A DNA stretch of 32,819 bases from an uncultured Pseudomonadota bacterium (lineage in GTDB: Bacteria > Desulfobacterota > BSN033 > UBA1163). Shown here piece after piece: positions 6,593 through 20,310 of this stretch. The stretch lies in the NCBI GenBank assembly GCA_937124575.1, contig CAKZKY010000368.1, forward strand, positions 1-32,819, in the 5' to 3' direction. The notes below the pieces were generated by a model that did not search any database, was not told the origin of the DNA, and saw nothing but the letters and a program-made list of their open reading frames with translations. The number at the start of each line of letters is the position of its first letter. The stretch's first letter is position 1. Made by a program: the position numbers and the translations under genes.

Positions 6593-7933
6593 TCAAGACT
6601 CATGGGTTCTTCCGATGTTACAAAAAAGGGTTCCCCTGTGGAGTTTTACCTCGACTTGATCTCCAGGTTTAACTTGTACAATGTCCCTTAAAATTTCCAT
6701 TGAGGGAAGTTTTCGTGTAATGCTATAACCTCTTTCTAAAATGGCAAGAGGGCTCAAAGAAGCCAGCTTTCCCCAAATTCCTCTGGTTCTCTCCCTTTCG
6801 AACTCGAGAGAGTATTTCATATGTTTTTCCAAGCGATCCCAGGCATCCAAAATTGAAGTCCGAAGGTTTCTTATTCTCTGCCCAGGATGCTGGAGCAAAA
6901 GTCTTTCACGGAGATATTGATTCCTCTCCTTCTTTCCTTTTATGGCCCAGAACAGGTACCTCTGGGCTCGGTTTAAGAGATCATCTACCCTCAAGAAATA
7001 GTCTTCAATTCTCTTTTTCGGATCGACCAACCTCCTCCTCAGGAATGATAAGTCTGATCTCCATTCTTGAACGAATTGTAACATTTGGCTTTCCAGGCGG
7101 TTCGTTAAATAAGAGAGATTTTTTTTCAATTCTCTTTTTTCCTTTACAACCAGTTCTGCAGCAGCCGAAGGAGTGGGAGCCCTCACGTCAGCGACAAAGT
7201 CTGAGATCGTATAATCGGTCTCATGGCCTACTGCAGAAACCACCGGAATTTTAGAATGGAAGATGGCTTTTGCTAAAACCTCTTCATTGAATGGCCATAA
7301 ATCCTCCAGAGATCCCCCCCCTCTTCCCACAATGATCACATCTACATTCTTCACCTTATTGAAATATTTAACTCCCTGCGCAATCTCCCGAGAGGCTCCT
7401 TCTCCCTGAACGCGGACAGGGTAGAGCAGGATCTGCATATTCTCAAATCTGCGTTGAATGATCTGAATCATATCTCGGATGGCAGCTCCGGTAGGAGAGG
7501 TGACGATGCCGATCGCTTTTGGAAGAAGAGGAAGCGGCTTTTTCCGATTTGGGTCAAAAAAGCCTTCCTTTTCAAGCCGATCTTTCATCTGTTGAAAGGC
7601 GAGTTGAAGGGCACCAATCCCTTTAGGCTCTATCTCTTCCAGAATGAGTTGATATTCCCCTCTCTTTTCATAGAGGCTGACCCTCCCACGGCAGATAACA
7701 TGGAGACCGTCCTCAGGTAGAAAACGAAGCGTTCTCGCTCTCATCTTAAAGAGCACACCTCGAATCTGGCTAAAATCGTCTTTCAAGGTAAAGTAGATAT
7801 GGCCTGAGGGAGGAATGCGCAGATTTGAAACCTCACCTTCTACCCAGACATCAGAAAATCTTGTTTCAAGTGTCTCTTTTATTTCTTGGGTCAGTTCCGA
7901 GACGGTGATAATATACCGAAGAGGAAGTTCCAT
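6593..7933 (-). CDS. xseA: Exodeoxyribonuclease VII large subunit
   Basis: Catalytic subunit of exonuclease VII. An N-terminal OB-fold (WVEGEVSNLR...GHIYFTLKD, about residues 29-55) binds single-stranded DNA. The nuclease core carries GIVTSPTGAAIRDM, the glycine-rich IIVGRGGGSLEDLWPFNEE, AVGHETD and the APTPSAAAEL motif. A long coiled-coil region that binds XseB follows. The frame is open to a GTG at 7945, but ATG 7933 is preceded by GGTGGAG at a spacing of about 6-7, so I use it (446 residues). This is the first gene of the minus-strand xseA-xseB-ispA-dxs-tlyA run. No convincing promoter was seen in the AT-rich region upstream. Confidence 0.96.
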   Translation of the reverse strand: MELPLRYIITVSELTQEIKETLETRFSDVWVEGEVSNLRIPPSGHIYFTLKDDFSQIRGVLFKMRARTLRFLPEDGLHVICRGRVSLYEKRGEYQLILEEIEPKGIGALQLAFQQMKDRLEKEGFFDPNRKKPLPLLPKAIGIVTSPTGAAIRDMIQIIQRRFENMQILLYPVRVQGEGASREIAQGVKYFNKVKNVDVIIVGRGGGSLEDLWPFNEEVLAKAIFHSKIPVVSAVGHETDYTISDFVADVRAPTPSAAAELVVKEKRELKKNLSYLTNRLESQMLQFVQEWRSDLSFLRRRLVDPKKRIEDYFLRVDDLLNRAQRYLFWAIKGKKERNQYLRERLLLQHPGQRIRNLRTSILDAWDRLEKHMKYSLEFERERTRGIWGKLASLSPLAILERGYSITRKLPSMEILRDIVQVKPGDQVEVKLHRGTLFCNIGRTHES

Positions 7934-7945
7934 GATGTTCTCCAC

Positions 7946-8044
7946 CCCGTTAGAAAATCTTCAATTCATAAGGTTAGAGCTCATGCTGGGCTATAAATCC
8001 CGTATCACTTATTTAAGGAGTATATCTTCATCATTTTCTAACGG
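7946..8044. repeat. 12-bp inverted repeat flanking a 75-base core
   Basis: CCGTTAGAAAAT at 7946-7957 is the exact inverse of ATTTTCTAACGG at 8033-8044. The left arm lies immediately upstream of the xseA ribosome binding site. A very similar word, TTTCTAACGGGGT, occurs in the ribD-nrdR spacer around 20240. The arrangement resembles a small terminal-inverted-repeat element, but no target duplication is visible. Confidence 0.5.
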
Positions 8045-8200
8045 AGTAAATATCACCCCACATTTGCCATGAGTAATATTAGCCCTTGGATATTTCTCCT
8101 TCTTAATATTTCATTTTTAAGATCCCCTTCATGGTGTCTTATCGACTTACCGCTCTTCTTGCGATCGATGGTTTAATCTCTAAACCCTTAATTGAGCGAC

Positions 8201-8322
8201 CTTTTTAGGATGCAGGAAGACCGAAAGCCTTTTAGAGCCCCTCCTTTGAGTGAAGGTAAATTGCCTAACGGATAACGTATCGCCTTCTAAATGGGTTTGA
8301 GGCATTTCTGCATCCCTTAAAA
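8201..8322. repeat. Imperfect inverted repeat, about 122 bases overall
   Basis: The left arm at 8201-8218 and right arm at 8305-8322 share a perfect GGATGCAG/CTGCATCC core (8208-8215 with 8308-8315). They are flanked by CTTTT/AAAAG ends, giving about 18 paired positions with one gap and one or two mismatches. The enclosed 86 bases include a CTAACGG word seen in other spacers. It could be a decayed miniature element or part of a folded RNA. Confidence 0.4.
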
Positions 8323-8432
8323 GATAGGGTAAATCACCTAATTTAGATAAACCTGAATAATGCGTGAAAAAGAAATAGGATCACCGTTTGACCCAGGTAA
8401 CATGCCGTTTGGAACATTCTATAGGCCTTGAT

Positions 8433-8461
8433 CCTTAACCTAATTAAAATGTAGGTTAAGG
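8433..8461. repeat. Perfect 10-bp hairpin
   Basis: CCTTAACCTA at 8433-8442 pairs without error with TAGGTTAAGG at 8452-8461 around a 9-base loop. No T-run follows on either strand, so it does not look like an intrinsic terminator. It may be an operator or a stem of a structured transcript. Confidence 0.5.
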
Positions 8462-8653
8462 GACAGTCTTAAAATGTGATTTTTGAGAAAACAAATATTC
8501 AGTTCCCTGTAAACAGAATCATCGGTTTCAAGCAATGAATTGACAACACTTGTTCACAGTTTTCACGCCGGATTCAGGATAAAATATTAACATATTTTTT
8601 TGTACGATAGTATTTTTTCAAACGTTCTTCCTTTGGCATGGAATCGAAAGTAT

Positions 8654-8718
8654 GCATGCAATATGGCCTCAATGTCTTATGGAGCAAAGCTTTGAGGCCA
8701 TTCGGCATGCCATTTTTT
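8654..8718 (+). terminator. Terminator-like hairpin upstream of the glycerate kinase promoter
   Basis: GCATGC (8654-8659) and ATGGCCTCAA (8663-8672) pair with TTGAGGCCAT (8692-8701) and GCATGC (8705-8710), leaving a 3x3 internal loop and a 19-base loop. Six Ts (8713-8718) follow after CA, the layout of a Rho-independent terminator on the plus strand. The reverse direction has no T-run. It ends 36 bases before the TTGACA of the next promoter, so it would end an upstream plus-strand transcript, although no upstream plus-strand gene is visible. Confidence 0.6.
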
Positions 8719-8754
8719 GCAACAACGGGGTTAATTCTCTAAGCTAAACCTCAA

Positions 8755-8784
8755 TTGACACTGATATATCAATTTAGTTATAAA
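8755..8784 (+). promoter_or_regulatory. Sigma-70 promoter of the glycerate kinase gene
   Basis: A consensus -35 TTGACA (8755-8760) is separated by 18 bases from TATAAA (8779-8784), or by 17 from TTATAA (8778-8783). Transcription would begin near 8791, leaving a leader of under 20 bases with GGAG at 8799-8803 before the ATG at 8809. The match is one of the best in the window. Confidence 0.75.
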
Positions 8785-8808
8785 ATTCAAAAGTTTTCGG
8801 AGAATTTA

Positions 8809-10161
8809 ATGGTCCGATTTACACTTGAAGAAATGCAGAAGATCGCTAAAGCCATCTTTTTAAAGGCTATTTCCGCCGTTGATCCCTATCAGAGACTTAA
8901 AACGATTGTTCATATTGATAGAAATCGCTTAATCATTGAAGGTGAGGACAACTCTGAAAAAGTCTTTAACCTGAACGATTTCGATAAAGTCTTTCTCATC
9001 GGAACCGGAAAAGCCTCTTCATCCATGGCGCGGGCCATAGAAGAGATATTCGAAGATCGCATCACAAAAGGGTTAATCACAACGAAATACGGCCATGGGC
9101 TTCCCTTAAAATATACTGAAATCATTGAGGCGGGTCATCCCTTACCTGATGAGAAAGGAATGGAAGGCGCCCACATGATAAAAGATCTGCTCAAAACGAC
9201 TGGACCGAAAGATCTCGTCCTATTTCTCATCTCCGGTGGTGGATCCTCACTATTACCTATTCCTTCAAACGGGATTACACTTGAAGAGAAACAGGGATTA
9301 ACCCAGCTTCTTCTCAATTGTGGGGCCGATATCAAAGAGATCAATACCATCCGTAAACACATCTCTCAGATCAAAGGGGGTTGGCTTGCAAGATGGGCTT
9401 TCCCTTCCACCGTCATCACGTTTATTCTCTCAGATGTGGTGGGCGATCCCCTGGATTCGATTGCTTCTGGACCTACCGTGGCCGATCCGACCACCTTCCA
9501 CGATGCCTGGGAGATTCTTAAAAAATATCATCTTCTCAAAGAGATCGCTCCGTCCATCCATCAACATCTCATGCGAGGCAAAGAGGGAAAGGTTGAGGAG
9601 ACACCTAAGCTGGGGGATCCCGTATTCGAAAAGGTCCACAATCTTCTTGTTGCTTCGAATATCATTGCTCTCAGTGCGGCCGAGAAAGAAGCAAAATCTT
9701 GTGGCTTCAATACGCTGGTCCTCTCTTCATCAATTGTGGGAGAGACCCGGGAGGCCGCTTGCTTTCATGGAGCCCTTGTGAGGGAGGTATTTGCGAGCGG
9801 CCATCCAATTCCAAAACCGGCCTGCATTCTCTCGGGTGGAGAGACGACCGTGACGATTAAAGGAGGAGGAAAAGGCGGAAGGAACCAAGAGTTTGTTCTG
9901 TCCGGAGCTTTTGAGATCAATGGAATGGAAAAGACGGTACTTTTAAGCGGAGGCACCGATGGAACGGATGGTCTGACGGATGCGGCCGGAGCTGTTGCCG
10001 ACCACACGACAATCACCAGAGCAAAAGAGATGGGGCTGAACCCAATGAAATACCTTGAGAATAATGACTCCTATCACTTTTTTAAGAAATTGGGAGACCT
10101 TCTCATCACTGGTCCCACACGCACCAACGTGATGGATGTGAGAATTATTTTGATAGATTGA
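8809..10161 (+). CDS. Glycerate 2-kinase, DUF4147/MOFRL family
   Basis: ATP-dependent glycerate kinase, forming 2-phosphoglycerate from D-glycerate and so linking glycerate from serine, glyoxylate or sugar-acid routes to lower glycolysis. The 450-residue protein has the two-domain layout of the TtuD/GckA group. The N-terminal DUF4147 domain carries GTGKASSSMARA at residues 65-76 and ISGGGSSLLP near 140-149. The C-terminal MOFRL domain has SGGETTVTIKGGGKGGRNQE around 340-360, followed by SGGTDGTDGLTDAAGA. I use ATG 8809, which has GGAG 5-7 bases upstream; the longer frame from TTG 8755 would start inside the promoter. The gene is probably read together with queD-folE2 47 bases downstream. Confidence 0.93.
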   Translation: MVRFTLEEMQKIAKAIFLKAISAVDPYQRLKTIVHIDRNRLIIEGEDNSEKVFNLNDFDKVFLIGTGKASSSMARAIEEIFEDRITKGLITTKYGHGLPLKYTEIIEAGHPLPDEKGMEGAHMIKDLLKTTGPKDLVLFLISGGGSSLLPIPSNGITLEEKQGLTQLLLNCGADIKEINTIRKHISQIKGGWLARWAFPSTVITFILSDVVGDPLDSIASGPTVADPTTFHDAWEILKKYHLLKEIAPSIHQHLMRGKEGKVEETPKLGDPVFEKVHNLLVASNIIALSAAEKEAKSCGFNTLVLSSSIVGETREAACFHGALVREVFASGHPIPKPACILSGGETTVTIKGGGKGGRNQEFVLSGAFEINGMEKTVLLSGGTDGTDGLTDAAGAVADHTTITRAKEMGLNPMKYLENNDSYHFFKKLGDLLITGPTRTNVMDVRIILID

Positions 10162-20144: not shown

Positions 20145-20310
20145 GTATCGTTCATAAAAGGTTACGTTCACCTTTTTAAATTCTCTTTACCCCTTTAGAG
20201 AGAATAAGTCATTTGGCTTCGATTCGTAATGCCGGAAATTTCTAACGGGGTTGACACATAACCGTTGCCTTACCGAAATGGGCTTCATCACTCTAACCGT
20301 CAGACTTTTT
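20145..20310. repeat. ribD-nrdR spacer rich in dispersed repeat words
   Basis: This spacer carries several words found in other intergenic regions of the window. The 21 bases at 20145-20165 match 651-671 with two differences. TTTCTAACGGGGT near 20240 resembles the xseA upstream arm. CCTTACCGAAA (20268-20278) is inverse to 25345-25355. The 30 bases at 20272-20301 match 24339-24368 at 24 positions, five of the six differences being transitions. GTCAGACTT (20299-20307) matches 621-629. The nrdR stop is immediately upstream on the reverse strand. Confidence 0.6.

Follow-up and report, generated by a model that had tools for sequence, protein, structure and literature searches.

The 875-bp spacer between the divergently oriented xseA and glycerate-kinase-type genes raises the question of what has filled it, and whether the T-tailed hairpin near its right-hand end marks the end of a transcript of its own. 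Both genes lie in the 32,819-nt stretch of DNA analysed here (the window), and the first-pass annotation had proposed either an undescribed small RNA or a cluster of decayed repeats for positions 7934-8754, where it saw no convincing gene and no known RNA. Both of these observations were confirmed: the longest open reading frame wholly within 7934-8754 encodes 44 aa (frames of at least 20 aa counted), the 85-aa frame at 7815-8072 is an antisense overlap with xseA, and an Rfam search of the region gave no match at the gathering score and, at a relaxed threshold, four chance-level matches far below the gathering scores (E 0.47-4.7). Our reading, to which we give a probability of about 93%, is that the spacer has been expanded by several insertions of non-autonomous mobile elements. 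About two thirds of the region is made up of MITE (miniature inverted-repeat element) sequence, assigned to elements E1, A, B/C and D, and three of the eight inverted-repeat pairs in the whole window (at least 15 bp long and at most 300 bp apart) fall inside the spacer, with approximately 290 of its 875 bp outside the assigned elements (8047-8180, 8584-8638, the promoter end and small gaps). The features of the locus are:

6593-7933, minus strand: xseA, exonuclease VII large subunit (Pfam PF02601, E 4.3e-106), the left neighbour, whose start forms the edge of the region
7945-8046, no strand assigned: E1, a 102-bp MITE-like element recognised by its matching inverted ends (12-15 bp terminal inverted repeats, CCCCGTTAGAAA type)
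8181-8185, no strand assigned: left target-site duplication of A, TAAAC (right copy 8348-8352)
8186-8347, plus strand: A, a 162-bp internally shortened copy of a MITE of about 228 bp with CCTAAATTGAGCGATT terminal repeats, defined by own-genome copies
8347-8351, no strand assigned: left target-site duplication of B/C, ATAAA (right copy 8579-8583)
8352-8578, plus strand: B/C, a 227-bp deletion derivative of an IS1380-family insertion sequence (IS), sharing its ends with IS contigs
about 8639-8730, plus strand: D, a remnant covering the right side of a MITE whose terminal repeats are CCCCGTTGTTGCA, placed by alignment with other D copies
8654-8718, plus strand: the terminator-like hairpin of D with its T6 tail, which other D copies retain only in part
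8755-8784, plus strand: promoter of the downstream gene, TTGACA-18-TATAAA
8809-10161, plus strand: glycerate-kinase-type gene (DUF4147 and MOFRL; ATG at 8809), the right neighbour, whose plasmid-borne relatives are annotated as glycerate kinase

When the own genome was searched with the region, at least 17 further places with its repeats were identified, and finer alignment split these into families; 40 of the 66 first-look candidates were scored, and copy counts are therefore lower bounds. The finer alignment of these own-genome matches revealed no second copy of the region's repeats elsewhere in the window. Element A has at least 11 further copies in the own genome, full copies measuring 227-230 bp with CCTAAATTGAGCGATT terminal repeats, and, with up to 2 mismatches allowed, its end motif occurs at 41 own-genome sites and the reversed control at 2. 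After three duplicates of one place and one spurious 375-bp pairing had been dropped from 18 pairings of A-type ends, 13 of the 14 distinct elements were found to have an exact 5-bp target duplication, the window copy (TAAAC) included, and the remaining one a duplication with a mismatch. Among the A places listed, 7 of 10 lie within 105 bp of a contig end. Own contig C369 encodes a 447-aa IS1380-family transposase (192.9 bits, cut-off 180), and behind it lies an A-type right end; the likeness of this IS to A is known from the right end alone, as the left end is cut by the contig edge. A left A-type end on own contig C527 was considered and rejected, since it lies between recG and an aminotransferase gene and has no adjoining transposase.

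The parentage of B/C can be traced from both sides. Its left end resembles own contigs C308 and C379 and its right end C496 and C283, its two IS1380-type ends thus being seen on different contigs. Beside the B/C-like left end, C308 encodes an IS1380 transposase, truncated to 337 aa by the contig end, that scores 201.5 bits (NF033539 cut-off 180); C379 contains IS1380-family transposase sequence interrupted by a stop, and on C496 the transposase C-terminus (a 99-aa fragment, E 1.5e-18, 66.6 bits) ends just before the shared right end. The deletion form, at 225-227 bp, is also present at two places in the sister species G006, these copies being 80% alike to B/C over 242 bp and 67% over 251 bp. 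As its ends match the IS1380 contigs and the deletion form recurs in G006, B/C is an IS1380-derived MITE; it retains the two ends of its parent IS, the transposase of which scores above the NCBIfam NF033539 cut-off, but has lost the transposase gene itself. The usual target duplication of the IS1380 family is 4-5 bp long, and all three distinct copies of B/C have a 5-bp duplication, ATAAA in the window included. Relatives of the parent's transposase, several of which are distant (25-30% identity), were found at seven own-genome places and in 6 of the 10 genomes of the genus (E <= 0.001). Contig C90 of G009 was discarded as a candidate complete IS1380 parent: it matches two short pieces of B/C with no matching end pair, and the transposase search gave no match on it. 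The palindrome at about 8430-8463 was likewise rejected as a separate RNA, since it is inside the IS1380 left end and common to IS copies. It stands immediately ahead of the lost transposase start, and may resemble the hairpins with which other insertion sequences block read-through.

Elements A (162 bp) and B/C (227 bp) both have the properties of MITEs, as they possess terminal inverted repeats and target duplications in the window, are short, multi-copy and transposase-free, and contain no open reading frame above 44 aa inside the spacer. They are immediate neighbours, with one placed right at the border of the other, and their duplications meet at 8347-8352, the last base of the right TAAAC of A (8348-8352) being the first base of B/C. 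Because the duplications share bases, one of the two is mismatched (4 of 5 bases) in either order of insertion.

The hairpin with its T tail is the terminal region of D, which has three further copies in the own genome (E <= 0.004), eight places in G009 and two in G003, with the D end motif present in 6 of the 10 genomes of the genus. From the own and related genomes 12 complete D-type elements of 94-223 bp were obtained, with 13-bp terminal repeats, and 11 of these have an exact 4-bp target duplication, in all cases TNNA. Three of the 12 (L048, L069 and L092), with exact duplications in each, have bodies that align with window D over 77-93 nt; these body-matching relatives measure 192 bp (G009), 192 bp (G003) and 94 bp (own contig C415), and the other nine share only their ends with window D (19-37 nt). 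Window D itself aligns by its right-hand part alone and is thus a remnant, in which two ends cannot be paired; because its left end is not recognisable, the insertion of D at this site cannot be proven, and TTAA at 8731-8734, following its right end, is a possible target duplication, compatible with such an event and nothing further. Neither a transposase that goes with the D and E ends nor an autonomous element bounded by them was found, the latter search covering the retrieved stretches, where D-end pairs span 94-223 bp and, at spacings of 260-2600 bp, a single E pairing (268 bp) and no pair of D ends turned up.

With regard to E1, its end motif TTTTCTAACGGGGT occurs, with up to 2 mismatches allowed, at 141 own-genome sites and the reversed control at 50; two elements of G002 resemble its first 60 bp (75% and 70%), and one element of G003 resembles its whole length (63%). 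The flanks TCCA and TAAA show no target duplication, for which reason E1 is called MITE-like only; among 19 E-type pairings five have an exact 4-bp duplication, and the window copy is not one of them. E-type inverted ends (CCCCGTTAGAAA / TTTCTAACGGGG) also bound elements of 94-101 bp at L110, L111, L112 and L035 (in G001 and G003), which have the flanks TTTA and TGAA in common and interiors of similar length and unlike sequence (best pairwise match 38-42% of positions). E-like ends are furthermore found 33 bp apart as short hairpins, the E end motif has 87 sites in G002 versus 1 for the reversed control (up to 1 mismatch), and another E-type end motif with one mismatch is located at 20238-20251 of the window. 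The start of E1 is 11 bases from the xseA start codon (window 7934-7950). A ATATAACA stretch that visual inspection showed ahead of xseA in several relatives is absent at this place, and xseA may therefore use a different promoter here.

The same locus was compared in 13 relatives, out of 16 genomes from the genus or family, leaving out G012 (no match), G002 (39% match, a doubtful orthologue) and G014 (gene 148 bp from the contig end). The xseA gene is adjacent and divergent in 7 of the 13, with spacers of 115, 211, 256, 293, 499, 523 and 1158 bp, and lies outside the retrieved stretch in three; in the three sister species G003, G006 and G007 (L054, L056 and L055) it is 5.1-7.4 kb from the glycerate-kinase-type gene, which makes this spacer also a site of larger change. 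When E1, A, B/C, D and the hairpin were used as queries, the 1.5 kb preceding the gene was free of matches (E <= 0.01) in all 13 relatives, with all five queries recovering the window itself as a positive control, and at E <= 1 there were only scattered matches of 13-38 nt. The downstream promoter is present as TTGACA-17-TATAAA at the equivalent place in 9 of the 13, with TTGACT forms in G011 and G016 and nothing clear in G001 and G015. Since the relatives lack the hairpin and most retain the promoter, the hairpin is a lineage-specific addition ahead of an old promoter; its absence while the flanking gene stays is also the pattern that the first-pass annotation had named as evidence against a small RNA. 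The 1158-bp spacer, that of G010, contains an A-type-end element of its own with the exact duplication TTAAA (L059). In G001 the E-type-end element of L035 (2855-2948) is directly upstream of the glycerate-kinase-type gene, and may have displaced the conserved promoter, which is not found in that genome.

The hairpin has the make-up of an intrinsic terminator, a GC-rich stem followed by a T tract. Its outer stem is formed by GCATGC at 8654-8659 pairing with 8705-8710 and its inner stem by ATGGCCTCAA at 8663-8672 pairing with 8692-8701, giving 16 pairs and a loop of 19 nt, with CA separating the stem from the T6 at 8713-8718. The predicted folding energy is -29.1 kcal/mol (z -4.39), which was reached by 0 of 200 shuffles; among 21,836 segments of 65 nt across the 32.8 kb (both strands, step 3), 27 fold at least as well, in seven clusters including the hairpin's own. 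A crude scan for T-tailed hairpins (MFE <= -18, at least six T in the last eight bases) placed it first of 13 clusters in the window, and it is not listed by a consensus terminator scan because the loop limit of that scan is 8 nt. The first-pass description of a 16-bp stem-loop with T6, 36 bases ahead of a good sigma-70 promoter, is thus correct, with a stability beyond chance and exactly 36 bases between the T6 and TTGACA. This promoter consists of TTGACA at 8755-8760, an 18-nt spacer and TATAAA at 8779-8784, and was missed by our promoter scan because its rule demands that the second hexamer end in T.

Whether the hairpin is a conserved RNA was addressed by comparing the stem in 10 of the 14 D copies, leaving out L085, L086, L088 and L089 of G009, which are identical to others over the stem. 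The 16 pairs of the window hold in 66.5% of cells, versus 65.0% in shuffles, 43 of 500 of which reach 66.5%, and the covariation score was reached by 84 of 500 shuffles, so that there is no convincing covariation. Partners slid out of register pair in 17-45% of cells, versus the 66.5% that is favoured by taking the structure from one row, and a weaker palindrome is therefore common to the D family. Columns 20-57, 21-56 and 24-53 are unpaired in 8, 9 and 8 of the 10 copies, and all three are paired in the window. Folding energies of the 14 D copies range from -7.5 to -30.5 kcal/mol, with the window at -29.1 and the C88 copy of G009 at -30.5. This pairing pattern and these energies are expected if the 3' arm in the window changed to match the 5' arm, the ancestral state being judged by majority only, and we infer that the near-perfect stem arose in this way. 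Quasipalindrome template-switching is described as making one arm match the other (PMC7202029) and would be a possible route; selection for a terminator, or chance, may have led to the same result.

In the expansion that we favour, an original spacer of perhaps 100-500 bp would have received elements moved in trans by resident transposases, those of the IS1380 family in the case of A and B/C, and these elements would now be decaying. The suggestion of a cluster of decayed repeats is therefore borne out well by the terminal inverted repeats, the target-site duplications, the IS1380-family parents and the copies found elsewhere in the genome and in sister species, whereas neither the undescribed small RNA nor the argument that a terminator implies a transcript starting within the region finds support, since the hairpin belongs to a mobile-element family. 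Any terminator activity would be a by-product, which may stop stray plus-strand transcripts ahead of the downstream promoter; insertion sequences in general are described as able to carry promoters and terminators (PMC9208149), and the hairpin could still terminate transcription, as was suggested for the pneumococcal SPRITE repeat.

In another reading, which we regard as doubtful, the D remnant would have been co-opted as a genuine intrinsic terminator that keeps transcripts of mobile-element debris from reaching the downstream promoter. The strength of the stem, the position of the T6 shortly before a conserved promoter, the first rank in the crude scan and the full pairing of three positions that are mostly unpaired in the other copies would fit such a role, but CA lies between the outer stem and T6, the loop is long, the hairpin is absent from the locus in the 13 relatives and no source transcript is known; template-switch correction would moreover perfect a stem without selection, and the C88 copy of G009 folds equally well. 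A bolder version, which we think distinctly improbable, makes the MITE tail a portable proto-terminator: insertion would bring a T-tailed quasi-palindrome, template-switch correction would perfect its stem (as in the window and one G009 copy), and selfish DNA would turn into a transcription insulator ahead of a host promoter.

An undescribed small RNA transcribed from the region and ending at 8718 is very unlikely. MITE-derived small RNAs are reported in Coxiella (PMC5896051), and the folding of an 809-nt stretch is more stable than that of all 20 shuffles (z -3.75), but nested inverted repeats alone yield such an excess. A 9-of-12 promoter-like match is present at 8587-8616 on the plus strand, yet the promoter scan of 7000-9800 gave five matches versus 4.2 expected from shuffles, which is no excess. 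The stem pairing of the D copies above that of slid partners could also be read in its favour, with the same advantage from the single-row structure, but covariation stays at shuffle level, there is no Rfam family, and nothing comparable is found at the equivalent place in 13 relatives. We give hardly any credence to the ideas that the region is what is left of a decayed protein gene or holds a 5' leader element (riboswitch) for the downstream gene: the region is positioned upstream of a gene, but the sole gene-related sequence found is the left end of the IS1380-family element, and because the conserved promoter is downstream of the hairpin, the latter is outside the leader of the gene if that promoter is used.

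Expansion by mobile elements has described parallels. The BOX, RUP and SPRITE repeats of Streptococcus pneumoniae are described as clustered short inverted-repeat elements with nested insertions and a terminator-like repeat (PMC3049150, PMC10969869), and like the elements in the window they are short, interspersed, bunched and mutually inserted. SPRITE is said to resemble a Rho-independent terminator (PMC3049150), as does the D hairpin, and the terminal repeats of RUP resemble those of a resident IS; this likeness is one of description, SPRITE being reported with 4-nt terminal repeats and a target duplication that could not be demonstrated, whereas D-type elements have 13-bp repeats and 4-bp duplications. 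Similarly, MITEAba12 of Acinetobacter, 113 bp long and likewise non-autonomous, has terminal repeats and target duplications, and a resident IS has been proposed as its parent; it differs in its 9-bp duplications and in that parent, ISAba12 (PMC6382973). A literature search by element-end sequence gave no paper for three of the ends, and the matches listed for CTAACGGGGT were unrelated by title.

With the spacer read as an accumulation of mobile elements, one candidate small RNA is removed from the list, and a MITE end is shown to be one possible origin of stable orphan hairpins in this genus. Copies of A are frequent break points of contigs (7 of the 10 places listed), as are those of D in G009, and the element families described here, three of them with target-duplication evidence, may aid the annotation of these fragmented genomes.
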